Below are positions 15,986-37,345 of a DNA stretch of 52,789 nucleotides, piece by piece. The notes beneath the pieces were generated by a model. That model worked only from the letters and a program-made list of their open reading frames with translations. It was not told where the DNA came from and did not search any database. The translations under genes and the position numbers were made by a program. Source of the DNA: Candidatus Faecimonas gallistercoris (GTDB lineage Bacteria; Bacillota_I; Bacilli_A; RF39; UBA660); assembly GCA_018712565.1 (NCBI GenBank), contig DVGU01000057.1, forward strand, positions 1 through 52,789, written 5' to 3'. Position 1 is the stretch's first letter; each line of letters opens with the position of its first letter.

Positions 15986-16213
15986 ATGGAATTTGAAAAT
16001 AGTGGAATGGGTAGATGTGTTGTTTTAAAAGAAAGCAATACCCAATATACATTAGTCTATGCTATTCAAAGTAAACAATTCATTGTTGTTTCTGATTTAG
16101 ATAAAGAAACAGGTAGTTGGTTACATGGTCATTACTTCGGACATGATTTAGATAGTGCTTTATCTAGCTTTAACAAGGAAACAGAAAAAGTACAAGATGA
16201 CTTGGAAAGGTAG
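15986..16213 (+). CDS. Small element protein ending in DDLER
   Basis: 75 aa; start 2 nt after the sortase stop. Confidence 0.65.
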   Translation: MEFENSGMGRCVVLKESNTQYTLVYAIQSKQFIVVSDLDKETGSWLHGHYFGHDLDSALSSFNKETEKVQDDLER

Positions 16214-16222
16214 GAAAATCAA

Positions 16223-16579
16223 ATGGAAAAAGTTGCAGTATATGCTAGTTTTAAAGACCAAAGTAGAAAGTCGATTGATTTTTTTCTAAACCGAGTAGCC
16301 GATTGGTGTCTTATGAAAAATTACGATTATACTCTTTACTTTGATAAAGTAAAAAATAGGTTAGATTTAGATAGAAAAGAATTAAATGACTTAAAAGAAG
16401 ATATTGAAAATGGAGAATACTCCAAAGTGATAATTAAAGATATAACACAATTATCAAGAAATACAGTTCATAATATGGAATTTTTGCAATTTTTAGAAGA
16501 TAATGACTGCAAAATAGAAAGCATGGATGGAACTGATTTAACTTTATATAAAAAATATATGAAAGATTTAATAAAATGA
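16223..16579 (+). CDS. Serine-resolvase-fold protein with apparently lost catalytic residues
   Basis: VAVYASFKDQ...DRKELNDLKEDIENGEYSKVIIKDITQLSRNTVHNMEFLQFLEDNDCKIESMDG aligns with a resolvase N-domain; YARVS is replaced by YASFK. Confidence 0.7.
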   Translation: MEKVAVYASFKDQSRKSIDFFLNRVADWCLMKNYDYTLYFDKVKNRLDLDRKELNDLKEDIENGEYSKVIIKDITQLSRNTVHNMEFLQFLEDNDCKIESMDGTDLTLYKKYMKDLIK

Positions 16580-16595
16580 AGGAGGAAAAAGAAAG

Positions 16596-17003
16596 ATGAA
16601 TAATGAAAAAGAAAGAGAAGTAAGAAACTCTAAAAATAGTTTTGAATTAGAAGGGAATGTTGCTAATATAAATAACATTTATACCAATCAAAATGGTAAG
16701 AAAATGTTAAGATTCGATTTAGCACAAAATAATAATGGTAATACTCAATATGTCCCTATTGTTTTAAGGGGAGAATTAGTAAATACTTATGGTATTGAAA
16801 TCCAAAAAGGAGACTGGATCTCTGTTAAAGGTAGAATATCTACTTATACTAAAGATGTTGAAAAAGATGGAAAAACATATAAAGATAAAGCAATAGATAT
16901 TTTAGGCTTTGAAATTACTGATAGAAAAAATAATAAAGTTTATACTTCCGATGGTCAAGTTCAAGAATTAAAAGATAAATCAAAAGATGAAATGGAAAGA
17001 TAA
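16596..17003 (+). CDS. Single-stranded DNA-binding protein (OB fold) with non-canonical tail KDEMER
   Basis: FELEGNVANINNIYTNQNGKKMLRFDLAQNN...VPIVLRGELVNTYGIEIQKGDWISVKGRISTYT. Confidence 0.75.
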   Translation: MNNEKEREVRNSKNSFELEGNVANINNIYTNQNGKKMLRFDLAQNNNGNTQYVPIVLRGELVNTYGIEIQKGDWISVKGRISTYTKDVEKDGKTYKDKAIDILGFEITDRKNNKVYTSDGQVQELKDKSKDEMER

Positions 17004-17005
17004 GT

Positions 17006-17512
17006 ATGAGTAAGTATCAATATAAAATATTAAGTTATTGGAACAATGCAGATGATTTATATGTCAATTACATTGTAGAAGATACCGAAACTAAAAATAC
17101 AGTCAATGCAATAGAATATTACAATACTTCTGATCTTAGTTGTGATTATAATTCATCTTCAGTAGAGGATATTATAGATTCATTAACAGAACTAATCAAA
17201 GAAAACAATGGATTAGAATTTAATTTACCAAAAGTAAGTGAGGCAAGTCCATTACTTAAATACGTATATGATTATGTTTGTGAAAGTGATGCTGATATGT
17301 GTCATATTGATTATAACGATTGGGAAGAATTAAAAGAAGATGAAGAATTTATTGATGAAGATATTAATACTCTAAAAAAGGAAATTGATAAATACAATCT
17401 ACATAGTTATATAACACTAGATGATGGCGAGTATATGATATGTGGTTATGGTGGTTTACAATGTTGCTTTAATGATGATAGAGTAAAGGAGCATGATGAA
17501 CTTGAAAGATGA
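17006..17512 (+). CDS. Acidic hypothetical element protein ending in DELER
   Basis: 168 aa, highly acidic; start 2 nt after the SSB stop. Confidence 0.65.
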   Translation: MSKYQYKILSYWNNADDLYVNYIVEDTETKNTVNAIEYYNTSDLSCDYNSSSVEDIIDSLTELIKENNGLEFNLPKVSEASPLLKYVYDYVCESDADMCHIDYNDWEELKEDEEFIDEDINTLKKEIDKYNLHSYITLDDGEYMICGYGGLQCCFNDDRVKEHDELER

Positions 17513-18170
17513 ATTAAAAAAAGGACAAGCATTTATAGGTGTTGATGATAAAAAATATTATTTTCTAGGATTTGATTATGATGACCAAATATTCTTTACT
17601 AATTTAGATTTATGGACTGATAAAGAACAAAGTTATATGACTAAAAGCAATATTTTTATTAAAGAGGTTTTAGATGAAAAATCAGAGATAATTGAAAATA
17701 GTACATGGTATTATCAGTCTATGAAAGAATTAGATAATTCTACTATGGAAGAAAAAATTAAAAGATGCTTGGATATTATTAAAAACTCAAATACAAAAGA
17801 ATTTGAATTAAGACCTACTGAGATAGGTCCATTAGTAAGAGGACAAGCATATAGTAAAGAGTTTAATCAATATTATGAGGTTATCGGTTTTATCGTTGAT
17901 AATAATATTTATTTAGATGCTGAATTAAAAGCTAAACAAAAAGGCTTTTTTGCAATCTATCATTCCAATTGTGAGAGTACAGTACCATTAATATTTGAAA
18001 GAAACTTTAGTGATAAAGATAATTCGTTTGATGGTAAACACTTTGTAGCAGGTAATGATGATAGAGTTGATATTGAAGATGTTATTTGTAATAAAGAATT
18101 AGTTAATTCTTATATGAATGACACACTATCGGATAGATTAGAGAATAACAACAAAGATATGTCAAAATAA
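17493..18170 (+). CDS. Hypothetical element protein
   Basis: 225 aa; overlaps the previous gene; RBS gtaaaggag. Confidence 0.65.
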   Translation: MMNLKDELKKGQAFIGVDDKKYYFLGFDYDDQIFFTNLDLWTDKEQSYMTKSNIFIKEVLDEKSEIIENSTWYYQSMKELDNSTMEEKIKRCLDIIKNSNTKEFELRPTEIGPLVRGQAYSKEFNQYYEVIGFIVDNNIYLDAELKAKQKGFFAIYHSNCESTVPLIFERNFSDKDNSFDGKHFVAGNDDRVDIEDVICNKELVNSYMNDTLSDRLENNNKDMSK

Positions 18171-18177
18171 AATATAA

Positions 18178-18220
18178 AACTGTGCAATTATTGGGTAATA
18201 GTTGCACAGTTGTTTTTTTG
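18178..18220 (+). terminator. Rho-independent terminator between accessory operon and T4SS operon
   Basis: AACTGTGCAA / TTGCACAGTT perfect 10-bp stem followed by a T-tract. Confidence 0.75.
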
Positions 18221-18248
18221 TATATGAATAAAAGAAAGGGTGAATATA

Positions 18249-18530
18249 ATGAGGAATTTTTTAAGTACATTAGCAATTCAACAATTAGAAGGTGGAACGT
18301 ATACAATAGATACTGTTTTAAATGTAATTAAACAAATAACTGACTGGGCATTAGCAGTAGGAATATCCCTTGCTGGTATTGCATTAGTTGTAAGTTTCAT
18401 TATGTATGCAGTAGTAGATGTCGACCAAAAGCCTAGAGTAAAAACAAGAATTTTACAGACATTACTTGGAATATTCGGAATAATTTTAGCCATCTCATTA
18501 GTTAATATTATTATAAAATTATTTACATAG
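18249..18530 (+). CDS. VirB2/TrbC-like small two-TM protein
   Basis: MRNFLSTLAIQQLEG... two hydrophobic helices; directly before a VirB6-like gene. Confidence 0.6.
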   Translation: MRNFLSTLAIQQLEGGTYTIDTVLNVIKQITDWALAVGISLAGIALVVSFIMYAVVDVDQKPRVKTRILQTLLGIFGIILAISLVNIIIKLFT

Positions 18531-18542
18531 GTGTAATGCTTT

Positions 18543-19931
18543 ATGATGACAAAAGTTTTTGATTTATTACGTAGTCTAGGTTGGTATTTAACAAGTTTTA
18601 TTTATGATTTAATTGATGGACTTTTGCAGATTATAAAAGAACTTAATGCGTTTGATATAATTAACTCATTATCAAGCAATCAAACATTCATAAATTTTTA
18701 TAATGGTGCTATGGCAATAGCAGTAACATTGTTTGCATTATTTATAGTATGGAGATTTGTAAATAAATTGTTAGATCCAGATGAAGAAACAACGTTTAAA
18801 ATGATTATCATGGAGGCAGTAAAATGTGGAACGCTTATTATGCTATCTACATTTTTATTTGTGCAAGTATCTAACTTTTCAATTACCTTATCTAATTATA
18901 CAGGAAATATTTTTGAAACGACCAGCAATTCAAAAATGAGTGATTCAATGCTTACAATGTTTATTTCTTATAGAGATGGTTATAAGAATAGCGAAAAGTT
19001 TGATGAAAGCAAAAGTATATCAGAATTAGTAAGTAGTGGCTCATTTGATAATGATGAATTATATTTGTCAAAATATGTAACTAAATCAAGAGTAATATTA
19101 TCTGATGAAAAAGATTATAAATACGAAATAAATTGGATTATGGCAGTATTAAGTGGTGGCTTTTTCCTATATAGTTTATTCTTTGCTGGAATTATGTTAG
19201 GAAGAAGGCAAATAGAATTTTTATTTCTATTTTCAATAGCACCAATAATATTTGCAACAAGTGTTTGTAATAAGCAAAGGCGAGGTGCAGTTATTGAACA
19301 ATTAGTATCGCTCGCACTCCAAAGTGCAGTTGTAATGCTAATAGTCAGTCTAACAGTAATGGTAATGCAAGAAATAAGTGTTACGACATTCTTTAGTAAT
19401 TCGTTTATGAATATTACAACTAAAGCATTATTATATCTTGGATGTGCGACATTCATCATGACAGGTAGTCAAGTGATTAACAGATTTATTGGCTCAAATG
19501 TAAGTGCAGCGAGTGGTAGAGAACAATTAATGTCATTAATGGGTTATGGCAAAATGGCTGGAATTGGAGCAACTATTGGAGCAGGAGCAACACTTGGTGG
19601 AGCTCTTTTAGGTACTGGTGTTGCTATGAAAGGTGGAAAAGCAGTAGGCTCTCATGCTTTATCTCAAGCAGGACTTGCTTTAGGAGTAATGGGTGCAGTT
19701 GATCCATCTAGTGGACAAACACCAAATAGAATGCAGAGATTTGCTAGTGCTATGGGAACAAGAATGTATATGGCTGGTCAAAAAATGGGAAGTAAACCTA
19801 GTGGCAATAAGTTTAGTGCAAGTGATGCCTTTGTAAATGCAGGAGCAAGTAGTTTGCATAATACTGTAAGAAGAGTAATGCCACGAGCGAGTTATAATAC
19901 ATCTTATTACCGAAGAAAAAACATGATATAG
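18543..19931 (+). CDS. VirB6/TrbL-like polytopic T4SS membrane protein
   Basis: 462 aa, multiple TMs, Gly/Ala-rich C-terminus; position in the T4SS operon. Confidence 0.75.
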   Translation: MMTKVFDLLRSLGWYLTSFIYDLIDGLLQIIKELNAFDIINSLSSNQTFINFYNGAMAIAVTLFALFIVWRFVNKLLDPDEETTFKMIIMEAVKCGTLIMLSTFLFVQVSNFSITLSNYTGNIFETTSNSKMSDSMLTMFISYRDGYKNSEKFDESKSISELVSSGSFDNDELYLSKYVTKSRVILSDEKDYKYEINWIMAVLSGGFFLYSLFFAGIMLGRRQIEFLFLFSIAPIIFATSVCNKQRRGAVIEQLVSLALQSAVVMLIVSLTVMVMQEISVTTFFSNSFMNITTKALLYLGCATFIMTGSQVINRFIGSNVSAASGREQLMSLMGYGKMAGIGATIGAGATLGGALLGTGVAMKGGKAVGSHALSQAGLALGVMGAVDPSSGQTPNRMQRFASAMGTRMYMAGQKMGSKPSGNKFSASDAFVNAGASSLHNTVRRVMPRASYNTSYYRRKNMI

Positions 19932-19944
19932 GAGGAATGAATTT

Positions 19945-20247
19945 ATGTATATTACAGTAAAATCAATAAAAAGAAATTTAGGTTTTAAAGGTATCGAGGT
20001 ATCTGATATTATTATTGCTTTACCAATATTAATCTTATTTATAGTCTTATTTTGCTTTACACCACTCAAAATACCTTCTATTGTTGGATTAATGATTGGA
20101 ATTTTTTGTTTACTACCTATTAATGTTAGTAAGAAAAATAGAATGTATAAAGTAATAGGTTTAATTTTTAAATATTTATTTAGAAATAAGATATATGTAT
20201 ATCAAAGGAAAGGAGAGGTGGACAACTTTGAAAAAACAAGTAACTAA
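19945..20247 (+). CDS. VirB3/PrgI-like T4SS protein
   Basis: Two TM helices, KVIGLIFKYLFRNKIYVYQRKG; immediately upstream of VirB4. Confidence 0.7.
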   Translation: MYITVKSIKRNLGFKGIEVSDIIIALPILILFIVLFCFTPLKIPSIVGLMIGIFCLLPINVSKKNRMYKVIGLIFKYLFRNKIYVYQRKGEVDNFEKTSN

Positions 20248-22735
20248 AGAAGAAAAAAAGAAAAAGAAAGAACATAAAGTTATAGAAAAGTTTGTTAAGA
20301 AGAAAGACAATTCAAAACAAAAATACATAACTAAAGGTGTTTTAAAAAGAAAGTTTAAAAATGCTCAAAGTTTTACCAATGCAGAAGTAGTAAATGATAA
20401 TGGAATTATAAAACTTCGTGATAATAGTTTTGCAAGAGTTTTTTCAGTTGATGCTATTGATTTATCACTAACATCAAATAATCAAAAGCAAAACTTTTTT
20501 AATCAATTAAAATTTCTTTATCAATTAAAAGGATTAAATTTAAGAATATACAAGTTAGATGATAAGATAGATCTAAATGCTAATAAAGATTACTACAATA
20601 GACTAATGGAAGAATTTGCTAATGATGAAGAAAAACTAACATTTTTAAAAGAAAGATATGATAGATTAGAAATATTAGAAGAACAAAATCTTACTACTAC
20701 AAGTAGATATTATTTTGTATTAATTAGTGATAATGATAAAGCATTAGAACATACATCAGAAGAACTAGAAATGCATTGTTACAATATGACACCTAGATTA
20801 CATATTCAAATGATTACAAATAAACTAGAGATATATCAGTTTTTGATAAACTTATATTTATCGAATGCTAATATAGAACAATTAATGTGGAGCGATTTAG
20901 TAGAACTAATCACTCCTTTTTTTATTAATGAAACAGTAGGTTATATAAAATCAGATGATACAGAAATACAAGTTGTAACAATTAAAAGATTACCACCATT
21001 TATAGATGAGTTATTTTTTGAAGAACTATTTAATGTTCCAGATACAAGATGTTGTATTCATATTAAAGATACAATACCAACTGAAGAACTGGTTAGAAGA
21101 TTAGATAGTAATTATGAATTTTTAGTTTCCGAAAGAAGCACTACTAGAAAATTATCAGATGCTACTCAAATGGATACTGAAAGAGAGAACTTTCAAGCAT
21201 TAATGACACAAATTAAAAATGGCGATGAAAAAATCAAAGAAGTTGATTTCATTATTGTAATAAGTGGTAATAGAAAACAACGTGAAGAAAAGTTAAAAGA
21301 GTTAAGAAAAATTGCTGATGTATTTCAAATTAAATTAGATGTTCCTAGAATGAGGCAAATGGAAGGTTGGCAAGCATTCGATATAACTAAAAATGGTTTT
21401 GAAGATTATCATAACTATCTTCCTAGTTTGACTTTATCAGCATCATTCCCACTTACGATTACTCATTTTAATGATGAAACAGGTTATATTTTAGGATCAG
21501 ATATTCATACAGCTTTACCAACAATATTTGATTTATTTCATAAAGATGCAACACGACCATCAAGTAATTTAGCCATAATTGCATCAACTGGTGGTGGTAA
21601 AAGTTTTACATTAAAGAAAATGATTATTAATGAAATTAATCGTGGTAATTCTTGCTTTTTGTTTGATGCAGAGGGCGAGTATGAAAAGTTAGTTAGGAAA
21701 AATAAGGGAGAGTATATTGATATGTATTCTTCTAGTGGTGGTATCATTAATCCACTACAAGTAAGATTTCTTCCTAGTGATAAAGAAGAAAAAGAAGATG
21801 GCGATATAAATTCAATTAATTATGAAGATTGTCCTCTTGCTAAACATCTAGGATCACTAGAAACATTTATTAAATGTGCCTTTGAAGAAATAAAAGAAAG
21901 TGAAGTAGTAGTTATGCTAGATATGATTGAAAAACTATATAAAAGGTTTGGTATAACTAAAAATACAAAAATATCTAGGTTAGAGAAATTAGAAAATACT
22001 GATTATCCAATATTTTCCGACTTGATAGAATTTCTACCAGATTATCGTAATATGATTACTAACCCAGAACAATTAAAAATAGTTGATAAGTTAGAGATAT
22101 TGTTAGATAGATTTAAAGTTGGAACTGATGCAATGTTATTTAATGGTTATACATCAGTAAATCTTGATGCTAACTTAATTGCATTTAATGTAAAGGACTT
22201 GCTATATAGTAAAAACAAAAGAATTATAACTACTCAGTTAGTAAATTTACTTACTTATCTAAATAATATTATCGTAAGAAATAAGATAGTAAATGATAAA
22301 GAAAAAGATAAAAAGAGAATTAAAAATATTGCAGTAGTAGTAGATGAGTTTCACTTATATTTAAAGAATACTGATAGTGAGGTATTGCTTACCTTTGAAC
22401 AAATTGCAAGAAGAATTAGAAAGTATCACGGGGCATTTATTCCAGCAACTCAAAGTATTCATGACTTTTTAGGAGATGATGATTCAGTTAGGAGTGCTAC
22501 AGCAATCTTTAATAATTGTCAGTATCAATTAGTTGGAATGCTAAAAGAAGATGACTTAACAACTTATTTAAAATTATTCTATCAAAACCCATTAACTGAT
22601 ACACAAAAAGAATTTTTAATGCAAGCAGAGATGGGAGAGTTTTTGCTTACGATTAATTCGAAGAATAGAATAAGAGTTAAAATTGTTGCTACACCACTTG
22701 AAGTTGAACTGATGGGAGAAGAAGTTAAAGTATGA
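20228..22735 (+). CDS. VirB4/TraE-like conjugation ATPase
   Basis: Walker A ASTGGGKSFT, Walker B IAVVVDEFHLYL; TTG start at 20228 with RBS aaaggagagg. Confidence 0.9.
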   Translation: MKKQVTKEEKKKKKEHKVIEKFVKKKDNSKQKYITKGVLKRKFKNAQSFTNAEVVNDNGIIKLRDNSFARVFSVDAIDLSLTSNNQKQNFFNQLKFLYQLKGLNLRIYKLDDKIDLNANKDYYNRLMEEFANDEEKLTFLKERYDRLEILEEQNLTTTSRYYFVLISDNDKALEHTSEELEMHCYNMTPRLHIQMITNKLEIYQFLINLYLSNANIEQLMWSDLVELITPFFINETVGYIKSDDTEIQVVTIKRLPPFIDELFFEELFNVPDTRCCIHIKDTIPTEELVRRLDSNYEFLVSERSTTRKLSDATQMDTERENFQALMTQIKNGDEKIKEVDFIIVISGNRKQREEKLKELRKIADVFQIKLDVPRMRQMEGWQAFDITKNGFEDYHNYLPSLTLSASFPLTITHFNDETGYILGSDIHTALPTIFDLFHKDATRPSSNLAIIASTGGGKSFTLKKMIINEINRGNSCFLFDAEGEYEKLVRKNKGEYIDMYSSSGGIINPLQVRFLPSDKEEKEDGDINSINYEDCPLAKHLGSLETFIKCAFEEIKESEVVVMLDMIEKLYKRFGITKNTKISRLEKLENTDYPIFSDLIEFLPDYRNMITNPEQLKIVDKLEILLDRFKVGTDAMLFNGYTSVNLDANLIAFNVKDLLYSKNKRIITTQLVNLLTYLNNIIVRNKIVNDKEKDKKRIKNIAVVVDEFHLYLKNTDSEVLLTFEQIARRIRKYHGAFIPATQSIHDFLGDDDSVRSATAIFNNCQYQLVGMLKEDDLTTYLKLFYQNPLTDTQKEFLMQAEMGEFLLTINSKNRIRVKIVATPLEVELMGEEVKV

Positions 22736-22914
22736 AACGATTAAGTGGTCGGCAGTTAAGAAAAGAGTTTAAGAAGATATACTTTGATGAGTTTGATGAT
22801 CCAAATGAATCTTTTATGGATTTCTTGTTAGACTTAATTCCAAAGAAAATATTAATAGAAATTATTTCAAAAGGGGAACATTATTATTCCTCTATTTTTA
22901 GTAAGTATAAATAA
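22732..22914 (+). CDS. Small hypothetical protein in T4SS operon
   Basis: 60 aa, translationally coupled on both sides. Confidence 0.5.
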   Translation: MKRLSGRQLRKEFKKIYFDEFDDPNESFMDFLLDLIPKKILIEIISKGEHYYSSIFSKYK

Positions 22915-23840
22915 TGAATAAAGGTAAAAAGAAAAACATTATTCTAAAAATTATTGGTGGTAGTACCATTTTGTCGGTAGCTTTTGCAATGGTTATTTTA
23001 ATTTGTGTGCTAATGATTTTTGATTTTTTTGGAACAAAACTTACAAAAGAAAAAGTTCAACACAATGAAGAATATGCAGATGCTTATAAGACTGCACTTA
23101 ATACATATCTAAAAGATGGATACGTTCCACTACAAAGACTATTATATTTTTATTTGGAAGATTCAACATTGACGCTAGATATTCTATATACAATGAATCA
23201 AAATAAAGAGGCAAAAACTGCTAGAGAAATAGAAAGTGTTTGTGAAGATCAAAGGGTAAAAAATATGACTGCTTGCACTAATGTTAATATAGAAGAAAAT
23301 AAAGATTATCTTGTAGTAAGTACAGGACATTTCAATTTTCCGTTAAAAAGTGAGTTTACTGTAACAAGTTTCTTTAATGAACAAAGAACAGTATATGGAG
23401 AAAGTAATACTCACAATGGTTGGGATTTAGCAGTACCAGCTCAAACACCAGTCTATTCAGTTTGTGATGGAGTGGTTGAAAAAGTAAACTTTACTCAAGA
23501 TTCTAATCTTCCTTACGACCAAAGTGGAAATAGTGTTGGCAATACAATTACCTTAAAATGTGATAGTGATTATGATGAAACTTATTATGTAATATTCGCT
23601 CATCTTTATCCTAATAGTGCAAAAGTTAGAGAAGGAGATACAGTAAGTCATTGGACACAAGTTGCAACTGCTGGAACTACTGGTTACTCAACTGGTAATC
23701 ATTTACATTATCAAGTGGAAAATGAAAATAGAGAATTAGTTGATGGAATGCAGTTAATTGATTTTACATTAAGTAGTTCATCAGACTTTAATGACTTTAA
23801 AAATCCTAATACTGGTTTTAGACCACCACTTGGAAATTAA
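22914..23840 (+). CDS. M23-family peptidase, T4SS cell-wall hydrolase
   Basis: N-terminal TM; HNGWDLAVPAQTPVYSVCDGVV and GNHLHYQV motifs. Confidence 0.85.
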   Translation: MNKGKKKNIILKIIGGSTILSVAFAMVILICVLMIFDFFGTKLTKEKVQHNEEYADAYKTALNTYLKDGYVPLQRLLYFYLEDSTLTLDILYTMNQNKEAKTAREIESVCEDQRVKNMTACTNVNIEENKDYLVVSTGHFNFPLKSEFTVTSFFNEQRTVYGESNTHNGWDLAVPAQTPVYSVCDGVVEKVNFTQDSNLPYDQSGNSVGNTITLKCDSDYDETYYVIFAHLYPNSAKVREGDTVSHWTQVATAGTTGYSTGNHLHYQVENENRELVDGMQLIDFTLSSSSDFNDFKNPNTGFRPPLGN

Positions 23841-23872
23841 AGGAAGCACATTTATAATGGCTATTTTATGAT

Positions 23873-24120
23873 GGTAGCCACTTTTAAAGAAAAAGGTAGC
23901 CACAATATTTGTTGATATTAAAGGTATTTTTTATATAGGGTAGCCACTTTTGTTATTAAAAGTAGTCATTTTTGCAAGTGCAAAAATAGTAAGACACCAC
24001 TATTTTCCCTTTATGCCATAAGGAATAAAAGGATTTGTGGTGTCGTTCTTCTTATGCCCATTAAAAATATGCAATATTTTTATTAAGAAAAATACCTTAA
24101 AAAAGTAGAAAGTGGCTACC
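23873..24120 (+). other. Candidate origin of transfer (oriT)
   Basis: GGTAGCCAC at 23873, 23895, 23939, degenerate AGTAGTCAT at 23961 (22-bp register), inverted GTGGCTACC at 24112; palindrome ATTTTTGCA-AG-TGCAAAAAT; GACACCAC/GTGGTGTC inverted repeat; upstream of relaxosome genes. Confidence 0.65.
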
Positions 24121-24147
24121 TATAAATTAAAGAAAGGAGTTTGTAAA

Positions 24148-24354
24148 ATGGTAAAAGGTTTAGTTAGAACTACATTAAGAATTGATAATAATTTAAAAAC
24201 TAGAATAGAACTTTTAGCAGTTAAAAATAATTTAAGTTTCAATAAAATGCTAACTTATCTAATAGAACTTGGCTATAATTCCTACATGGAAAAATTTGAT
24301 AAGTATTACGAAATACAAAATAAAAAAATTGAAAGAGAGGAAGAAGATGAATAA
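24148..24354 (+). CDS. Ribbon-helix-helix relaxosome accessory protein
   Basis: VRTTLRIDNNLKTRIELLAVKNNLSFNKMLTYLIELG; ATG at 24148 after aaaggag. Confidence 0.65.
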   Translation: MVKGLVRTTLRIDNNLKTRIELLAVKNNLSFNKMLTYLIELGYNSYMEKFDKYYEIQNKKIEREEEDE

Positions 24355-24811
24355 GACTAGAATTTATACAGATGAAGAAATAAGAGTTTTATTAAGTAAT
24401 CCTAATGTTGTTAGAATTAGAAATAAAAGTCAGATACTTTATAAAAATAGTTTTAAACTTTGGGCTGTTAAAGAAAAATTATCTCATAGCGAAAAGACTG
24501 CAAAAGAAATATTTACTGAAGGTAAGTTTGATGTAAATATGTTAGATGACAGAACTCCACAAAAAAGGTTAAACTCATGGATGAAGAAATATAAAATATT
24601 TGGAGAAGATTATTTTTCTGATTCTAAATCTCATTATCAAACAAAAGGAACAATTTTTGATAAAGATAAAGCAGAACATAACTTTGTAAATTATGTTAGA
24701 AAAGCAGTACATAATCCAAAGTTTGTAGCATTCATAATTGATAGAGATGAAAAAAATAATCTTCGTATAACTAATTTAGTGAGTATTGAAGATGAAAAAA
24801 CTAACAGTTAG
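24347..24811 (+). CDS. Hypothetical relaxosome-associated protein
   Basis: 154 aa from ATG 24347; coupled to RHH genes on both sides. Confidence 0.55.
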   Translation: MNKTRIYTDEEIRVLLSNPNVVRIRNKSQILYKNSFKLWAVKEKLSHSEKTAKEIFTEGKFDVNMLDDRTPQKRLNSWMKKYKIFGEDYFSDSKSHYQTKGTIFDKDKAEHNFVNYVRKAVHNPKFVAFIIDRDEKNNLRITNLVSIEDEKTNS

Positions 24812-25121
24812 ATTAGAAGATTATATTTATGATAGACTTTATCTTGTAGCAAATGATAATACCACATCAGTAAATAAAGTTGTGGCTAGTATTTTAGAAA
24901 AATATATTAACGAGCCAAGAGAAATTAATTATTTAAAAGAAATAGATGAAAAATTAAAGAATATAGATGATAAGTTAGAAAAAATTTCTAAAAGACAATA
25001 TAAGCATTTTAAATTATCTCAACAACACTTTGCTAACTTTGGCTACTTATCAAATGCTGATATAAAAGAAGATAAATGTCTTAATGAAATATTAAATAGT
25101 AAGGACTCTTTCAATGAGTAA
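24792..25121 (+). CDS. Second RHH / MobC-like protein
   Basis: MKKLTVRLEDYIYDRLYLVANDNTTSVNKVVASILEKYI then a coiled-coil segment. Confidence 0.6.
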   Translation: MKKLTVRLEDYIYDRLYLVANDNTTSVNKVVASILEKYINEPREINYLKEIDEKLKNIDDKLEKISKRQYKHFKLSQQHFANFGYLSNADIKEDKCLNEILNSKDSFNE

Positions 25122-26478
25122 AAAAAGTCCTAATGTTGTATTTAAAGGTAGATACAGTCTAGCACTTACTTGTAGAGATAATAAAAACAAATCATTAAAT
25201 TATAAAGAAGAAAGATTAAAAGATGTTGATGACATGATTGATTATTATTCTGATGAAAAGAAAAAAACAGTTGGAATGTTTGAATATTATATGGGGCATA
25301 CAAGAAACGAAAAATATAATCTTGTAATGGAAAATGGGTCTTATGCTACTAAACAAGATATAGCAAAAATTAAAACTAATTATAAAAAGTATATTGAAAA
25401 CTCAAATCTTTGGAAAGGCATCTTAAGTTTTAAAAAAGAATATCTTGATGAAAATATAGACATAAAAACATTAGAACAAAAGATAGCTAAAGAGGTAATG
25501 CCTCAATTTTTAAAGTATTGTGGTTTTAAGGATATGAAAAATATGAGTTTTGTTTTTGCAATACATACTAATAGAAAACATCAGCCACACATTCATTTTG
25601 CTTTTATTGAAAAAAAGCCAAATTACTTATATTGCGATAATAAAGTTAATTATAGAAGAAAAGGTAAAATAAGTCTTGATGAGCAAAGGTATTTAAAAAG
25701 ATTAGTGGAACTTGCTATTGAAAGAGAGAAATATTATACTCCATTACTTAAGAAAACTAATGAAGATATTGATTATTTAAAATCATATTTTAATCCAAAA
25801 GAAAAAAATTTTGCATTAAGAAATGTAAATGAGATTTATGTTGAAGAAGATATTTTAAAACTAGGAGAGTTAATAAAGAAATATCGTGAGCAAAATAATC
25901 AAACATCTAAAAAAGTAAAATATAATTCTATTAAAGATAATGAACTTGGTAAAGAAATCAAGACTTTGACTAAAAGAATTAAATCATATCTTTTTAATGA
26001 TGAAACATCTATTTTGTATGCTAGTAGAAAAGATATAAATAAAGATTTAGAAAAACTTAATGACTATTTTGATACTTTAAATAAAAATAATAATGTTAAA
26101 GAGTTAGTGGCAGATAATAGTATTGTTAATAAAAAAGAAGAATATATTGATAACTATATTTATAATTCAATAGTAAATCATGCTTTATATAAATATAATC
26201 ATATTTCTATGTATGTAAAAAATAAGAATAATACTGATAAAATCACTATTGATGATTTAATACAAGAAGTTGTTTATCAAAATAGTAAACGAAATAATTT
26301 TAGTGATAAGCAAAGAAGAAAGCAAGTGTTATATAATTATTTTAAAGGTAATAGTTATATTTCTAGATTTCCTAGTAAGCATAAAATAGAGAAAGCCATA
26401 AAAAATATTAATTATGAAATGGAAAAAGCATCACAAGAGTTTAGTAAATTATTCAATTATGATGATAAAACTAAATAA
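25114..26478 (+). CDS. MobL/MobP-type relaxase
   Basis: SPNVVFKGRYS N-terminus; histidine motif HTNRKHQPHIHFAF. Confidence 0.8.
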   Translation: MSKKSPNVVFKGRYSLALTCRDNKNKSLNYKEERLKDVDDMIDYYSDEKKKTVGMFEYYMGHTRNEKYNLVMENGSYATKQDIAKIKTNYKKYIENSNLWKGILSFKKEYLDENIDIKTLEQKIAKEVMPQFLKYCGFKDMKNMSFVFAIHTNRKHQPHIHFAFIEKKPNYLYCDNKVNYRRKGKISLDEQRYLKRLVELAIEREKYYTPLLKKTNEDIDYLKSYFNPKEKNFALRNVNEIYVEEDILKLGELIKKYREQNNQTSKKVKYNSIKDNELGKEIKTLTKRIKSYLFNDETSILYASRKDINKDLEKLNDYFDTLNKNNNVKELVADNSIVNKKEEYIDNYIYNSIVNHALYKYNHISMYVKNKNNTDKITIDDLIQEVVYQNSKRNNFSDKQRRKQVLYNYFKGNSYISRFPSKHKIEKAIKNINYEMEKASQEFSKLFNYDDKTK

Positions 26479-27228: not shown

Positions 27229-27304
27229 TACAAATTACAATTTATCGAGGAGATCAACTTAATATAGTTAGTTGGTCTTTTTTATTGTGAAGAAAGGAAG
27301 GATT

Positions 27305-27442
27305 ATGATAAAGATTATTTTAATGGCAATAGGAGTGTTCTTATTGCTTTTTTTATATTGTGCTTGTGTTATATCAAGCAAGTGTTCAAGAGAGGAGGAA
27401 AAAGATGAACAGTTTAGAAAGATACAAAATGTTATCAAATGA
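27305..27442 (+). CDS. 45-aa single-TM small protein
   Basis: MIKIILMAIGVFLLLFLYCACVISSKCSREEEKDEQFRKIQNVIK; gaaaggaagg upstream. Confidence 0.5.
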   Translation: MIKIILMAIGVFLLLFLYCACVISSKCSREEEKDEQFRKIQNVIK

Positions 27443-27741
27443 AGATAAATCTAATTTAACAATTTATAGTATTTATGACAGCATTTATGATGTTGCAAAA
27501 AATGAAGATATTAATATAAGTGATGATATAGTTACTGATATTAAAGAACTAGCTTATGACTTATATCTTGATGATGAATACATGAATTTATCTGCACCTC
27601 AAATTGCTTTTTTCTTAACAGAGTGCTATGCAAAAGATAATTCTTTTATGGATAAAGTTGCTGATATGGATTACTCTGACATTTTTACAAGCAGTTGATA
27701 ATGATAATTATGATTTTTATCAAGATGAAATGGAAAGATAA
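27405..27741 (+). CDS. Hypothetical element protein, apparently frameshifted near 27682-27686
   Basis: ORF ends YSDIFTSS at 27698; removing one T from TTTTT gives YSDILQAVDNDNYDFYQDEMER ending at 27741. Confidence 0.55.
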
Positions 27742-27743
27742 TT

Positions 27744-27881: not shown

Positions 27882-27882
27882 C

Positions 27883-28158
27883 ATGGATTTTTCAAAATTA
27901 AATTTAGAATTTGCTAATATGCAAAAAACAGTCGAAGATTATAACAAGATAATTACTTTGATTAATATGAGGATTAAAGATAATTTAAGGACTGTCAGTA
28001 AATACGAAACGAAAATGAAAAATACAAAAAATAAATTAGAGAAAGATTTAGCACATTTATATATAACATCAATTAAATGTGAAACTGAATTTTTAGAAAG
28101 TTTAGTAAAGGAGGATAAAAATAATGAACGAGAATCAGGGAATACTAAAAATGTATAA
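27883..28158 (+). CDS. Coiled-coil hypothetical protein
   Basis: 91 aa, RBS aaggaggg. Confidence 0.55.
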   Translation: MDFSKLNLEFANMQKTVEDYNKIITLINMRIKDNLRTVSKYETKMKNTKNKLEKDLAHLYITSIKCETEFLESLVKEDKNNERESGNTKNV

Positions 28159-28519
28159 TGAAGAAGAAATAAAACAATTACTTAATAGTAACGAAAGGTT
28201 AGTATATATTGATGATGGGACTGATGAAATAGTAGCAAGGTATGAAGATTTACCAGATATTATTGTAGATGTAAATGAAAAACTTGGTCATACTGAAAAT
28301 TTAAAAGTATATGATTTTGATAATCAACTTCTTGATAAACCTATTTTAACAACAATAGGTTATTTTTTGGATAAATGTGATCCAAAAGTAAGAGAAGATA
28401 TTATTGATAGATTAGTTAACTTACAAACTGGAGTAGAACAAATGAAAGATTATAAAGTAATTGATGAAGATATGCTATTTGATGTTAGAATTGCCATGGA
28501 TGAAGAAATGGAAAGATAA
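28124..28519 (+). CDS. Acidic hypothetical element protein ending in EEMER
   Basis: 131 aa, RBS aaaggagg; 2 nt before the coupling protein start. Confidence 0.65.
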   Translation: MNENQGILKMYNEEEIKQLLNSNERLVYIDDGTDEIVARYEDLPDIIVDVNEKLGHTENLKVYDFDNQLLDKPILTTIGYFLDKCDPKVREDIIDRLVNLQTGVEQMKDYKVIDEDMLFDVRIAMDEEMER

Positions 28520-28521
28520 GT

Positions 28522-30495
28522 ATGCCAATTCCTTATATTATCATTTTAGTTATAGTTGTATTAATAATTATCTTTTTATATTTTATTGAACCACTTATAA
28601 CTAGGCAGAAAATTAAAGATAATAATGAACATGGTAGTGCTAGGTGGTCAACTTTTCAAGAGATTAAAAAGAACTTTAGAAAAGAGAAGATAAATAATAT
28701 TATTGAAAGTGGTTTTCCAGTTTATTATTCAAAAGATAATAAATATGTATGGTTTGATATGACAACACCTCATTGGATTTATCTAGGATCAACTGGTAGT
28801 GGTAAAAGTGCTACTGCTGTTATTCCAGAATGTAGTTTTATAGCAACTGCTAAAAATAAAAAGAGTGTTTTTATTACTGACCCAAAGGGAGAAATTTTTT
28901 CTACAACAAGTAAGATGTTTAAAGATAATGGTTATAATGTATTTACATTGGATTTTAGAAATCCAGAATATTCTAATCATTCTAATTTACTTGAAACTGC
29001 AATAAATGAATATGAACTTTTTGATAAAAACGAGAAATTAAGTGATAAAGAAAAAAATGAAGAACTAAAAATTAAATATAAAAATGAGGCAATAACACAT
29101 TATGCTCAATGTAATCAAATAGTAAATGATATATGCACTATGATTATGGCTGATAAGACTGCAAAAGAGGCTTTTTGGAATAATAGTGCAAGTGATTTAT
29201 TATATGGTATTATTTTTTTGTTTTTAGAAGATTATGCTGATGGAAAAATTAAAAGAGAGCAAATAACATTAACATCTATGAAAAAATTTCAAAATAGTTC
29301 CATGACTGACAAAAACATAAAATCATTAAGAAAATATGTAGAGGCAAAGCCTTATGGATTTAAAAGTAAAGATAAATTGATACCAATTATTTCTACTAGC
29401 GAAAACACTTATAAAAGTATAACATCAATATTCAATGAAAGAATGACTCTGTTTGATGATGTAAATGTAGAAAATATAACATCAAATTCTGACTTTGATT
29501 TTGATATATTAGGAAAAGAGCCGACGGTATTGTATTGTTGCATACCTGATGAATCTAAAATATATTACACTTTAGTATCAGTAGTAGTATCTTTAATCTA
29601 TAAAAGATTGGTATTGTTATGTAATCAACAACCTAATAAAAAGTTACCAATCGAACTTGTATTTTTACTTGATGAATTTGCAAATACACCACCTTTACAG
29701 GACATTGAAACAATCGTATCAGTAGCTAGGAGTAGAGGAATGTATTTTCAATTTTTCTTACAAAGTTTTGCCCAACTTGATAATTTATATGGTAAAGAGG
29801 TTAGTCAAATAATACAAGATAACTGTGGACTTGCTTATTTAAAAACAAATACACAAGAAACAGCTGAAGCAATTAGTTCAAGACTTGGAACTCATGGAGT
29901 AGAAACCACCTCATTAAATTACTCTATTAGTTTACTTAATAATAATGGGAGTAAAGGCACAAGCCTTATTTCAAGAAGATTATTAACTGCTGATGAGATA
30001 AAACAATTACATTATAAAACTATTATATTCCCAACAATAGGTTATCCAATCTTTCGTGATACAGTAATTTATCAAAAGTTTAGTTGTTATAAAAAGGGAT
30101 TTATTGATAGAAAAATAAGACCACTTGAAAGACTAGCAAATACATACTATACAGTAGAACAATTAAAATTCAATAATAAAGAAAGTAATCAAGAGCCTAA
30201 ACTTGATACTGCTGAATCTAAAATTAAAACAAAGTTAGTATCAATAATAAATGAGGTATTAAAAGTCTTTGGAAAAATTGATTTTAATGTTGAATACGTT
30301 AAAGATGATGATAACATCATAGCCCAGTTGTATTTAGCACCACCATTATCAACTAACGATCTAAAAGAGTTAGAAGAATTAAGTAGTAAATTAGATTTTT
30401 TCTATAATGCTATATCAGATAAAGGAAAAGTTAATCGTAAAAATAGAAACTCATTAATTGAGGTTTTTTTAGTTAATAAAGAAAAAGAAATGTGA
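28522..30495 (+). CDS. VirD4/TraG-like type IV coupling protein
   Basis: YLGSTGSGKSATAVIPE Walker A; IELVFLLDEFANTPPL Walker B; N-terminal TM. Confidence 0.92.
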   Translation: MPIPYIIILVIVVLIIIFLYFIEPLITRQKIKDNNEHGSARWSTFQEIKKNFRKEKINNIIESGFPVYYSKDNKYVWFDMTTPHWIYLGSTGSGKSATAVIPECSFIATAKNKKSVFITDPKGEIFSTTSKMFKDNGYNVFTLDFRNPEYSNHSNLLETAINEYELFDKNEKLSDKEKNEELKIKYKNEAITHYAQCNQIVNDICTMIMADKTAKEAFWNNSASDLLYGIIFLFLEDYADGKIKREQITLTSMKKFQNSSMTDKNIKSLRKYVEAKPYGFKSKDKLIPIISTSENTYKSITSIFNERMTLFDDVNVENITSNSDFDFDILGKEPTVLYCCIPDESKIYYTLVSVVVSLIYKRLVLLCNQQPNKKLPIELVFLLDEFANTPPLQDIETIVSVARSRGMYFQFFLQSFAQLDNLYGKEVSQIIQDNCGLAYLKTNTQETAEAISSRLGTHGVETTSLNYSISLLNNNGSKGTSLISRRLLTADEIKQLHYKTIIFPTIGYPIFRDTVIYQKFSCYKKGFIDRKIRPLERLANTYYTVEQLKFNNKESNQEPKLDTAESKIKTKLVSIINEVLKVFGKIDFNVEYVKDDDNIIAQLYLAPPLSTNDLKELEELSSKLDFFYNAISDKGKVNRKNRNSLIEVFLVNKEKEM

Positions 30496-30509
30496 AAGAA
30501 GGTGTAGGA

Positions 30510-30986
30510 ATGACTAATATTGGAGATTATATTGCAAAAGCAAGAATAGATAAAGGCTATTCTATGAGAAAACTGGCTAGATTAAGTGGATTAGATAATG
30601 CCACAATATCTAAAATAGAATCTGGTAAAATCAAAAATCCGAAATTATCATTAATAAAAACATTATGTAGATATTTAGATATTGCTTATGAAGATTGTCT
30701 TTATGTTATGCAATTAGGTGCAACTTATAATCCTAATAACAATATTTTAATGAATTATTATAATAATATTTCTGATGATGAATTAAAAAGCACTTATAAA
30801 AATATCATAGGTAAAATAAATGAATATGATAAAATTTTATCTTATTTACACCAACAATTTAATCAAACTGATGATAAGAAATTATTGATAGATACAATAA
30901 AGTCTTATGAATATGAAAATAGAACTAATAAATATATTAGAAAAATTTTAGAAGAAAAAATACTTAATAAATATTTGAATAGTTAG
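30510..30986 (+). CDS. XRE-family regulator
   Basis: [47 protein letters not shown]. Confidence 0.85.
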
Positions 30987-30997
30987 GAGGGTTAAAA

Positions 30998-33900
30998 GTG
31001 AATAAAGAGTTTGTAAATGATTTTTTTAATATAAGAGATGAAACTTTAAAAGATATTCAAGATAATTCTTATAATTGGAATCGCTTTATTATCTACTGGT
31101 CTAAAATACTAGATGATTATAGCATTGATAATGTTCTTAACTTATATTCTTATAATTCTAGTGGTAGAGTTTTTAAGACCTTTGATGATTGGAATAGTGA
31201 GGAAATTGGTAGAAGAATAAAACCTAAAAGTAGAGGAATCCCAATAATTGTTAATGATGCAAAAATATATGTATTTGATATTAGACAAACTTATGGTAAA
31301 GAATATAGGACTTGGAATTATAATCACTATATTGATAAAGACATTTTAAATTATTATCAAGATAGTTATAATATTGAAAATGATGATAGTAAAACATTAT
31401 ATGAAAATTTTTATGATACGTTTTATGAAATATCATTAAATCAAATAATGAATAATTATAAAACAATGTCATCAGATGAAGTGGAGTTCGTTGCTAAAAC
31501 AATGACTTCACTTTTTTTAGCAAAATCTAATTTTAATATAAATAATCTTCCAACAGTTTATGAAATGCTGGAAAATATGGAAACTGACGATATTTTAAAG
31601 TGTATGCAGATAGCCAATAAAGAAACTGCAAACATATATAATGATTTTATAGAGAAAACTGATAATCTTATTTCCATACAAAATGTTATTCGGGAAAATG
31701 TACTTAATCAATTTAAAGAAGATACATTTATAAGTGAAGAACAAAAGCAGAACTTTATATCATCAATAGAACGAAATTCATTCTTTAATAGTGAGCATAT
31801 TGAAAATATCTATAATGGATATGTTACTAGATATGAACGTGCTTTTAAGAAAATGGTAAATAATATTGTTGATGAAATAACTACTGAAAGCAATGTAGAA
31901 AGTATTAAAGAAACTAAAGTTGATGATAGTGAGGAGATTAATACTGATACATCTTCAATAAGTGATGAAGAAAATGTTAGAGAACAAATGTCATTATTTG
32001 CACCTAGAGAAGAAGAACTCGCAAATAAAATATGTGATATTTTCAATTCTTTTGATACAAAATACCAAAATACATTTGAAATTAATAATGTGGAATTACA
32101 AAAGTGGGAACATATTAAAAGTAAAAAGAGAAATTTATCTATTATTTTAACAAGTTCTTTGATAGGAGAGTTTGCAGATAGAGATAATAGTTTTACTTAT
32201 TTTAATAGTGATAAAACTGATGAAATAAAGTTAAATAATAGTATTGCAAATAATTATTTTTTACAAGAATTATATAAAGATAAAGATTTTTCAATATCAT
32301 TTACTCCTAGTATGATTCATATATTTTGGCATAACTTTGATGATAAAACTTTTGATATGAATATTCCTAGTACAAAACTAGTAGATCAAAGTGAGATAGA
32401 TAATCAAGAGTTAGAAAAAATTGATGATGAAATATCTGCAATTAATAACGATAAAGAAATTGATTATAAAGTAACAACAGCTGAAATAATACCTACTCAT
32501 GATGGTGTTGAAACTAATGTTATAGAAAAACATACTTATAATACTGTTGGAGAAGAAATAGAAGAATATCCTAAAGTTAATTATCATATTGCTGATGATA
32601 AAACTGATACAAGTTTTGGTGCAAAATCGAGATTTGAAGATAACGTCAAAGCAATAGAATTATTAAAAAAGTTAGAAACCGAAAATAGGAATGCAACTAA
32701 AGAAGAACAAGATGTTTTAGCACGATATGTTGGTTGGGGTGGAATTGCTGATGCTTTTGATGAAAGAAAAGAAAACTGGAAGAGTGAGAGAGAAAGATTA
32801 AAATTACTTTTAAGTGATGAAGAATATAAATCAGCATCTCATTCTACATTATCTTCTTTTTATACTCCAAATGTTGCGATAGATGGAATATATAAAGCCT
32901 TAAAACAATTTGGTTTTGAAAAAGGTAATATTTTAGAGCCTAGTTGTGGTATTGGAAATTTCTTTGGTAGATTACCTAATGAATTTGCAAACTCTAAATT
33001 ATATGGAATAGAGTTAGATAGTATAAGTGGTAGAATTGCTAAAAAACTTTATCCTAATGCAAAAATAGAAATAAGTGGTTATGAAGAATCAAAAGTTAGT
33101 GATGACTTATTTGATGTAGCAGTTGGTAATGTTCCTTTTGGTAGTAATACAGTTTATGATAGAAGATACAAAGATAAGTTTTTAATCCATGATTATTTCT
33201 TCCAAAAGACATTAGATAAAGTTAGAGATGGAGGAATAATCGCTTTTATAACAACTGATGGAACTCTTGATAAAAAAGATACAAAGGTAAGAGAATACAT
33301 TGCAAAAAGGGCAGAGTTTTTAGGTGCAATAAGATTACCAAATAATATGTTTACAGATAATGCCAATGCTAAAGTTACATCGGATATTATTTTCCTAAAG
33401 AAACGTGATGAATTAAAACATGATGTAAGTGATGAAAGTTGGATTTATACAAGTGAATATGATGATGGAATAACAATTAATAATTATTATATTGATAATC
33501 CTGATATGATGCTTGGTAAAATGGAATTGCATTCAACTGCTTATGGTTTTGACAATACATTAAGTCCAGTAGATGAAGATATTAATGTTTTAATGAATAA
33601 AGCATTAGAAAAGTTACCAACTAATAACTATGAACAAACTACTTTTATTCAAAACGAAGATAATGATTACGAGGTACTTGATGCTGATGATAGTGTTAAG
33701 AATAATGCTTTTGTTATTATAAATCAAGATGGTAAAGATATAATTTATCAAAGGTCTTTTTCTAGTTTAGTTCCTTATTCTATTCAAGAGGGAATGGTAG
33801 CAAAAAGAATAATTGGTCTTTGCAAGGTAAAGAATGCTTTACGAGAAGTCTTTGATGTACAACTTAATGATGGCAGTGATGAAGAACTATCTTCAGCACA

Positions 33901-36900
33901 AGAAAAATTAAGTAAAGTGTATGATGAATTTTATAAAAAGTATGGTTATATAAATGATAGTGTAAACGCAAGAGCCTTTGATAGTGATCCAGATTATTAT
34001 TTGCTTACATCTATTGAAAATAAAATTAGTAAAGATGATGAAGAAAATGATAAACCTAAATATGAAAAAGGAGATGTATTTACAAAGAGAACTATCAGAA
34101 AAAGTAAAAAGATAACAAGTGCAGAAAATGCTGAAGAAGCATTAAGGTATTCACTTAACAATCGTGGGTGTGTTGATTTTGAATATATGAAAACATTATA
34201 TCCAAAAGAGGAAAGTGAAATCATTGATGAACTTGATAATTTAATTTATCAAGATCCTGAAAAGATAAATGATTTTAATTATGGTTGGGTAATAGCCAGT
34301 GAATATTTAAGTGGTAATGTAAAACAAAAATTAAATTATGCTAAAACAGTTAATGAGGATAATAAGTTTGATAGGAATATAGAGGCACTTGAAAGAGTAC
34401 AACCTAGACCACTTGAATATGATGAAATAAGTATTAAATTAGGCTCTACTTGGATACCAGAAGATGTATATCATGAGTTTTGCTGTGAACTTTTAGATAT
34501 TCCTAGTTGGAATAAGAGTCAACTAAAGATTAAATATGCAAAAGAGGTCAATACTTGGTTATTTCAAGCTAGTGGCTTATATGGATATGGAGTAAAAAAT
34601 ACAAGCACGTGGGGAACAGATAGAGCAGATGCTTTATCTTTAATTAAAAACTCTTTAAATCTACAAAGTGTAACTGTTTATGATAAGTTAGAAGATGAAA
34701 GGCGAGTTGTAAATCCAGTAGAAACTGCTAATGCTAGAGAAAAACAAGAGGCAATAAAGCAAGAGTTTAAAGAATGGATTTGGAAAGATGAAGATAGAAG
34801 AAATAGACTTGTAAAATTATACAATGAACAATTTAATTGTATGAAAGAAAGAGAATATGATGGTAGTCATTTAACTTTTGATGGTATGAATCCAAATATA
34901 GAACTTCGACCACATCAAAAAAATGCAGTTGCTCGTGTTTTATATGGTGGTAATACTTTACTTGCTCATGCAGTTGGTGCTGGTAAAACTTATGAATGTA
35001 TTGCTAGTGCAATGGAATTAAAGAGATTAGGTATAGTTAGTAAGCCAATGTTTGTTGTGCCGAATCATTTGTTAGGTCAATGGGCTAATGAAATTTTAAA
35101 ATTATATCCTACTGCGAATATATTAGTTGCAACACAAAAAGATTTTGAAAAAACAAGAAGAAAAAAACTTATGGGAAAAATAGCGACAGGAGAATGGGAT
35201 GCAGTTTTAATTGCTCACTCTAGTTTTGGATTAATTCCTATGAGTAAAGAGTATGAACAAAAACACATGGAAGGACAAATAGAAGAAGTAGTTAATGCGA
35301 TTGAAAGAATAAAAGCAGAAACTAATGATAGTTTAAGTGTAAAGAAACTAGAACAAATTAAAACTAGCATGGATACCAAACTAAAATCGTTAATTGATAG
35401 ACCAAAAGATGATGTGGTAACATTTGAAGAATTAGGTGTCGATGAATTAATTGTTGATGAGGCACACTTGTTTAAAAACTTACCTATGTTTTCTAAAATA
35501 AGAAATGTTGCTGGAATAAATAATAGTGAATCTAAAAAAGCAACAGATTTATTTATGAAGATAAGTTATGTATTAGAAAATAATGGTGGTAAAGGTGCAG
35601 TATTTGCAACTGGTACTCCTATTTCAAACTCCATGGGAGAACTATTTGTTATGCAAAAGTATTTGCAACTTGATAGATTGCGAGAAATGGGACTTGAACA
35701 TTTTGATGAGTGGGCATCAACTTTTGGAGAAATTGTTAATAGTTTTGAAATCGCTCCTGATGGTAGTGGTTTTAGAACAAAAGCAAGATTTGCTCAATTC
35801 TTTAATATTCCAGAATTAATGACTTTATTTAAAGAAATTGCTGATATTCAAACATCTAAAATGTTAGATCTACCAGTTCCTAAATTAAAAGGTGGAGATT
35901 ATAAAACAGTAGTTGCTCCAAAAAGTGATGAACTTGCTGAATATGTTAATAAGTTAGCAGAACGTAGTGAAATTATTAGGAATGGTTGTGATCCAAGGGA
36001 TGATAATATGCTTTTAGTAACCAATGATGGTAGAAAAGCAGCACTCGATTTAAGAATGATAGATCCTAGTATGCCAGATTTACCTAACTCAAAAATAAAT
36101 ATGGCAGTAGAAAACATTTATAGAATATGGTTAGAAAACAAAGATGACAAGTTAACGCAACTTGTCTTTTGTGATTTATCTACTCCTAAAAATGATGGTA
36201 CTTTTAATGTTTATGATGATATTAAAAACAAACTTATTGCTAGAGGAGTACCAGCAGATGAAATTGAGTATATTCATAACGCAAAAACTAATCCTCAAAA
36301 ATTAAAACTTTTTGAAGATATGCGAAATGGAACAAAAAGAATTTTAATAGGATCAACTTCTAAAATGGGAGCAGGAATGAATGTTCAAGATAAATTAATT
36401 GCTTTACATCATTTAGACTGTCCATGGCGACCATCTGATATTGAACAACGTGAAGGAAGGATTTTAAGACAAGGTAATCAAAATGATGAAGTGGAAATAT
36501 ATCGTTATGTTACTGAAGGTAGTTTTGATGCGTATTCTTATCAATTAATTCAAACGAAATCTACTTTTATTAATCAAATAATGTCTAACAGTAATGGTGG
36601 TGGAAGAACTGCTGAAGATTTAGATAGAGATACACTCACTTATGCAGAGGTTAAAGCTCTTGCTAGTGGGAATCCTTTGATTTTAGAAAAGTTTAAAGTA
36701 GAAAATGAATTAAAACAATTATACTTATCTAAAAGTAGATATGATAAATCACATATTGAACTTGAGGCAAAATATAATACAGAATTACCACGTAAATTAA
36801 AATATCAAAAGCAATATTTAAGTGGTCTTGAAGAAGATGTAAAAAATGTCAAAGATTTGTCTGCAGATAATTTTGTAATTACTATTAAAGATAAAATTTA

Positions 36901-37345
36901 TGATTCTAGGAAAGAGGCTAGTACAAAATTTTATGAAAGTTTTTCTCTTTTAAAGTCTAGAGAAGAAACTAAAATTGGAGAAATAAGTGGTTTTGATATT
37001 ATTGGTACTAAAGATGAGTTATGGTATAAACCAGTTATTTATATACAAGGTGCTGGAAAGTATAAAGTTGAAATTAGTAATACTGATGAAATAGGTAATA
37101 TTTTAAAATTAGAAAATATGCTAAAAAGTTTTGAAAATAAAATTGGTACTGCTAAAGAACAAATCGCTTATACTGAAAAACAACTTATAGATGTTAAAGA
37201 GGAACTTGATAAACCATTTACACAAAAAGATAGAATTAAAGAATTACAAAAAGAAAAAGCAAGAATTGATAGTGAACTTGATTTAGATAAGCAGGAAAAC
37301 AATAGAAGTGTTGAGAAAACAACTGAAGAAGAATTAGAAAGATAA
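30998..37345 (+). CDS. Giant N6-methylase-like plus SNF2-family helicase fusion
   Basis: [13 protein letters not shown] (SAM motif), VGNVPFG (motif IV-like), [13 protein letters not shown] (Walker A), [26 protein letters not shown]; ends EEELER. Confidence 0.9.

Follow-up and report, generated by a model that had tools for sequence, protein, structure and literature searches.

A conserved C-terminal Glu-Arg tail on otherwise unrelated ICE proteins, a candidate recruitment signal of conjugative T4SSs

Why should proteins of one ICE that share nothing else end in nearly the same five residues? The question is raised by a 52,789-nucleotide stretch of Candidatus Faecimonas gallistercoris DNA (contig DVGU01000057.1), analysed here as a whole and called the window, in which a first-pass annotation had noticed six C-termini of the form [DE][DE][LM]ER. 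All six were found as described, on ICE proteins ending at 16213, 17003, 17512, 27741, 28519 and 37345 of the forward strand. Five are intact ORFs of 75, 135, 168, 131 and 2115 aa: an orphan ending QDDLER (15986..16213), without homologue among the retrieved loci; the ICE SSB, ending KDEMER (16596..17003; PF00436, E=7.9e-8); an acidic protein ending HDELER (17006..17512); an orphan encoded directly upstream of virD4 and ending DEEMER (28124..28519); and a methylase/SNF2-helicase ending EEELER (30998..37345). The 75-, 168- and 131-aa proteins gave no convincing match in Pfam, NCBIfam or PADLOC, and the 75-aa protein no Pfam match. The sixth copy belongs to a small all-helical orphan (the 27360 family) that is frameshifted, its downstream frame ending QDEMER (27405..27741). 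The annotation had suspected this frameshift, and three relatives (L083, L084, L085) indeed encode an intact 126-aa ORF ending DEMER; a T-run differs in length between the window and L084, and the frameshift is either an assembly error or real. Structures predicted for the 28124 and 27360 families (pLDDT 86 and 88.7) had no PDB match, so that no function could be read from these confident models.

To gauge how rare such tails are, we searched DNA with the peptide-level pattern GAN GAN HTN GAR AGR TRR, whose stop position also admits TGG. The window's own genome (1,294,549 bases, 74 contigs) contained six matches, all in the window and all on the forward strand, whereas the reversed control pattern had none in the same 1,294,549 bases. 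Among relatives the pattern was present in 39 of 147 genomes, on average far fewer than one match each; taking 0.4 matches per genome as the rate, at least six in the window have a Poisson P of ~3e-14. Matches to the strict pattern by chance or on the chromosome included an enolase (L033), two replication-initiator-like proteins (L019, L034) and an 84-aa ORF (L070).

No tail was present on the SpaA-type surface adhesin and sortase of the element (12894..15984), the VirB4-like T4SS ATPase (20195..22735), the M23 peptidase of the transfer machinery (22914..23840), the VirD4-type coupling protein (28522..30495; PF02534, E=1.5e-54) or the large serine recombinase (38416..40098), all on the forward strand. 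The probable relaxase (25114..26478, forward strand; metal-binding motif HTNRKHQPHIHF) ends NYDDKTK and likewise has no ER tail. A 118-aa stand-alone resolvase-N-domain protein without the tail lies between two tagged genes (16223-16579). At 38416-40951, a peptidase S11 (carboxypeptidase) gene has its start overlapped by the serine recombinase gene, and its product appears ~54 residues shorter at the N-terminus than an L070 homologue; overlap and shortening suggest that the ICE inserted into this gene.

We next asked whether the tail is conserved in related ICEs. A VirD4 profile search retrieved 24 GTDB loci, mostly Bacilli MAGs; a VirD4 scan of viral contigs found no relative. Counts were restricted to the best-covered families and to homologues extending to the C-terminus, with ORFs called mechanically and duplicate contigs excluded. 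On this basis, an ER end was kept in 49 of 64 tagged-family homologues (SSB 5/6, 168-aa protein 2/2, 27360 family 18/20, 28124 family 10/16, methylase/helicase 14/20). By contrast, only 2 of 212 members of adhesin, sortase, VirB4, VirD4, M23, relaxase, recombinase and other small ICE families ended in ER, one a sortase and one an 86-aa protein (Fisher P 2.5e-38, on related members whose counts are not phylogenetically independent). The tail is thus almost absent from the membrane and envelope parts of the machine, and none of the 21 VirD4 homologues has it. Chromosomal control stretches had no ER end in 195 mechanically called ORFs, a background not GC-matched to the Tn1549 hosts discussed below, compared with 59 of 386 in ICE loci. 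Enrichment over chromosomal proteins is what the annotation had proposed to look for in related ICEs. Ends of the form [LMIFY]ER, found on 48 of 74 tagged-family ORFs, occur at ~0.001 per interior position.

Close orthologues of the ICE SSB end TEMER (L245), EEMER (L064, L072) or NEMER (L068), homologues of the 168-aa protein SDELER (L064), EELER (L021/L259) or VFANER (L072), and methylase/helicases of other genera, 45-48% identical, KDYER, NKDYER or NRDYER. In the 27360 family, mean column identity is 26%, yet the terminal Glu-Arg is among the few invariant residues; there and in the 28124 family the sequence ahead of the tail varies while the final residues are kept. The motif as first defined is real but too narrow, as homologues also end DYER, EFER, EIER and NMER. 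Exact ER is missing in about a quarter of tagged-family homologues: these often retain the core, ending EMEK, EMEN, EMEH or EMDR (several in the 28124 family with EMEK, EMEN or EMDR), and some have plainly lost it (ENDK, QQVRM). Related ICEs also encode extra OB-fold/SSB-like paralogues of ~280 aa, several ending in ER (L068 14947-15804, L093 18209-19054, L096 18501-19343, L089 9986-10807).

Further unrelated families carry the tail. In window-type and related ICEs these are DUF4313, DpnD/PcfM, DUF3991-TOPRIM, DUF3848, LPD11 and OB-fold proteins. A Monoglobus record carries a Tn1549-type element, with VirD4 and VirB4 of the CD1115/CD1110 families, in which an SNF2 protein ends TYER, a DUF3846 protein DMER, PcfB VKER, and two other proteins DYER and DKER. 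Three other Tn1549-type elements, in which proteins were named by position and N-terminal resemblance rather than by family search, have such ends on an SSB-like protein (KEMER), on ParB-like proteins (SLER, EQER), on a TOPRIM primase-like protein (KEYER), on an SNF2 fragment (ISLER) and on a relaxase-like protein (NTER). Where Tn1549-type elements reside in GC-rich DNA, the peptide tail is kept with other codons.

Relaxases are the classic conjugation substrates, transferred with the DNA, and outside ICEs it is chiefly the MobV (Mob_Pre) relaxases of mobilizable elements that bear the strict tail. An unbiased search of all 147 relatives with PF01076, followed by gene retrieval, yielded 81 distinct MobV C-termini, of which 16 ended [FYLIM]ER (background 0/195 ORFs) and 48 fitted [DE][DE]-hydrophobic-[DE]-x(1-3) (background 1/195); inside the same proteins, the four-residue pattern [DE][DE]-hydrophobic-[DE] occurred at 0.0023 per position. 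Some MobV relaxases in these hosts end exactly DD[FIL]ER or DELER. The looser form also fits MobV proteins of named plasmids (KDHELER in B. velezensis pA, EELEL in Nostoc, NDFEM in Acinetobacter), and other named-plasmid ends are RGMHL (pT181) and QGMSL (a B. subtilis plasmid). Plasmid MobV proteins from Staphylococcus, Bacillus, Enterococcus, Nostoc and Acinetobacter (L204-L213) showed a loose end, hydrophobic-[ESH]-[LRM]. Two near-identical putative integrative mobilizable elements were seen in two genera (L066 1-2739, G070:C61; L075 9986-13409, G005:C8), in which a serine recombinase adjoins a MobV relaxase ending DDELER.

As relaxases are transferred in conjugation and carry the tail, the tail is tied to substrate recognition, short of proof. 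The annotation had counted the lack of a tail on relaxase and coupling protein against delivery; this is correct for the ICE's own relaxase and VirD4, but not for relaxases in general. Homologues of the ICE's own relaxase end in NYDDKTK-type tails without ER, so this family must use another signal, if relaxases need one. Its window member had no Pfam match above cut-off and was not recognised by NCBIfam; with an HxxxxxHxH motif read in the sequence and 16 homologues in related ICE loci, it may represent an undescribed relaxase family.

On a VirD4 tree, every one of the 12 window-type and 5 Tn1549-type elements had ER tails, whereas the five elements on other VirD4 branches had none in 119 ORFs; one of these five is pCF10, the Gram-positive model system. 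Hosts of the same family occur both with and without tail-bearing elements. The window's own genome contains a second, related ICE (G000:C32, about 18000-41500; L255, L260, L261), with VirD4 and VirB4 each 56% identical to those of the window ICE, and this element has tails of another kind. Its SSB ends EKDKEMDM and a 251-aa protein EKDKEMDI, a shared ending KDKEMD[MI], and the two genes directly upstream of its virD4 end EDYEL and DDYEID. The genome's housekeeping SSB keeps the end DDELPF, which bears out the remark that the ICE SSB has its usual DDxxPF-type tip replaced, by KDEMER. In this one genome with two ICEs, on which the dialect argument rests, two tail dialects share a cytoplasm, indicating that the readers are probably element-encoded.

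What could the tagged proteins do? The 2115-aa protein has SNF2 and Helicase_C domains, and an orphan-MTase match, and across about 1600 aa it is 38% identical to phage proteins annotated as DarB-like antirestriction; by its methylase and SNF2 homology, it is a DarB-like antirestriction/polyvalent protein. For proteins of the DarB type, delivery together with phage or conjugative-element DNA has been predicted (PMC5512222). Transfer through the F-plasmid T4SS has been demonstrated for ParA, ParB1 and SSB (PMC8406263), and F-plasmid translocation signals may be C-terminal or internal (PMC11288057). Most of the identifiable tagged proteins (SSB, DarB-like, ParB, primase) could act on incoming DNA in the recipient.

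The tail is found on unrelated proteins, is conserved, is kept off the machinery, is absent from the sampled chromosomal ORFs and occurs on relaxases. We consider it probable that it serves as a C-terminal T4SS recruitment signal, by which the VirD4 complex would select relaxases and establishment proteins for co-delivery. In such a model, establishment proteins (SSB, the DarB-like methylase/helicase and small acidic proteins, elsewhere ParB, TOPRIM primase, PcfM-like and DUF4313 proteins) would display acidic-acidic/x-hydrophobic-Glu-Arg-COOH on a flexible C-terminus, the element's coupling-protein complex would bind it, and the tagged proteins would enter the recipient together with the DNA strand or beside it. 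A mobilizable element whose MobV relaxase bears the same or a variant tail would be accepted by the same machine. From sequence, we infer VirD4 or a VirD4-bound adaptor as the tail receptor, and propose the window VirD4 (28522..30495) for this role; the tagged proteins would then cross into the recipient.

Could the tail instead be a by-product of translation? Purine-rich codons before a stop might serve as ribosome-binding site or in translational coupling for the next gene: an ATG or GTG lies within 20 nt downstream of 53 of the 69 distinct tails, and GGAAAGATAA resembles a weak Shine-Dalgarno stretch. However, the remaining 16 tails have no nearby start, as expected from the earlier view that coupling alone is insufficient, and machinery genes in the same operons do without the tail. 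Codon usage is also too varied. Inspection confirmed the codon and stop variety described for the six window tails, and across the distinct tails of ICE families the hydrophobic residue is written with nine different codons, arginine with AGA, AGG, CGA and CGT, and the end with all three stops. This variety indicates that selection acts on the peptide, and conservation, enrichment and recoding in GC-rich elements likewise favour the peptide-level constraint, rather than a DNA repeat, proposed in the annotation. A coupling artefact, which would also have to accommodate the tail-free chromosomal ORFs, is highly improbable; a DNA repeat or ribosome-binding site as the full origin is ruled out by codon diversity, GC-rich recoding and missing starts. 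Hardly credible is coincidence or common ancestry of a C-terminal domain. Kinship among related elements does inflate the counts, but, as first noted, the tagged proteins are otherwise unrelated (SSB, SNF2, helical orphan, relaxase) and the sequence before the tail varies while the last residues are kept; the genome-wide, chromosomal, family and MobV counts rule this origin out.

If the tail is a tag, who reads it? SSBs bind replication and repair proteins of the host through an acidic C-terminal tip, which the ICE SSB lacks; the tail might thus be an SSB-like interaction tip, or mark proteins for degradation, with a host factor as its reader. We hold this to be very unlikely, because two ICEs in one host have different shared tails, hosts of the same family carry elements with and without the tail, the host SSB retains its own tip, and the tails end in Glu-Arg, not in ssrA-type Ala-Ala. 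Of the sorting, docking or degradation tag first suggested, the peptide-level, element-specific tag is thus strongly upheld and the version with a host degradation or docking factor disfavoured. A docking tag internal to the donor, which would bring proteins together at a hub encoded by the element (VirD4, a VirB4-associated adaptor or the relaxosome) but not lead to their transfer, is less easily dismissed, although we still judge it unlikely. Element-specific dialects and co-occurrence with VirD4 clades fit it equally well, and the genes of two tagged families lie immediately ahead of virD4; on the other hand, SSB, DarB-like antirestriction proteins, ParB and primase could work in the recipient, and relaxases of mobilizable elements, themselves transferred, bear the tail. 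T4SS delivery, for which these MobV tails are independent support, is the version that we favour.

Extending T4SS recruitment beyond the ER tail, we tentatively suggest, at somewhat less than even confidence, that the conjugation machines of Firmicutes recognise a short C-terminal code, [DE][DE]-hydrophobic-[DE]-x, in dialects that differ between elements: ER for window-type and Tn1549-type ICEs, and EL, DM or DI for the second ICE. The code would define the co-delivered set, and mobilizable elements would match their relaxase dialect to the chosen ICE. Were this so, the delivered protein set of such elements could be predicted from sequence. A recent review treats protein delivery into other cells by Gram-positive T4SSs as an open question (PMC12857230). 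With a near-fixed motif on SSB, antirestriction, partition, primase and relaxase proteins, such delivery becomes directly testable; the motif would also yield an inventory of the proteins that Tn1549-type and related ICEs deliver, and hint at how a mobilizable element picks the machine it rides.

How does the tail compare with known systems? The acidic tip of bacterial SSBs is likewise at the extreme C-terminus of an OB-fold protein, but the ICE tail has Glu-Arg in place of Pro-Phe and is common to non-SSB proteins. The Legionella-type E-block is a glutamate cluster near the C-terminus; the ER tail has acidic residues at -4/-5 and -2, together with a fixed hydrophobic residue and Arg. Most MobV relaxases of mobilizable plasmids and IMEs in the hosts studied end in the same kind of tail, others in EL, MSL, LSR or IGM, whereas the ICE's own relaxase belongs to a different, Pfam-unrecognised family. 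A literature search covering few subscription papers found no published C-terminal consensus for MobV relaxases or Gram-positive T4SS substrates. Among polyvalent proteins (PMC5512222), the 2115-aa protein matches phage DarB-like proteins, and LPD11 and DUF3991-TOPRIM proteins of related ICEs are tagged too; the P1-type phage forms, for their part, are packaged in virions. Plasmid-borne DarB-like homologues from Rhizobium, Alteromonas, Acetobacter and E. faecalis had no ER tail. The proteins co-transferred by F plasmid pED208 are of the same kinds, SSB and ParB; their transfer is shown there and inferred for the ICE, and the consulted passages of that report mention no shared terminal motif (PMC8406263).

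C-terminal T4SS signals are already known as a kind. Those of Agrobacterium VirB/VirD4, Legionella Dot/Icm and the F-plasmid conjutome are likewise short, often C-terminal and borne by unrelated substrates, and the coupling protein has been proposed as their reader (PMC11288057), as we propose for the ER tail. The net positive C-terminus of VirB/D4-type substrates was not found here, the tails being acidic with a single terminal Arg. Whereas the reported C-terminal signals of the VirB/D4 and F types carry positive charge or are hydrophobic, with a loose definition, the ER tail is a near-fixed acidic-hydrophobic-Glu-Arg end, carried by elements of monoderm Firmicutes.
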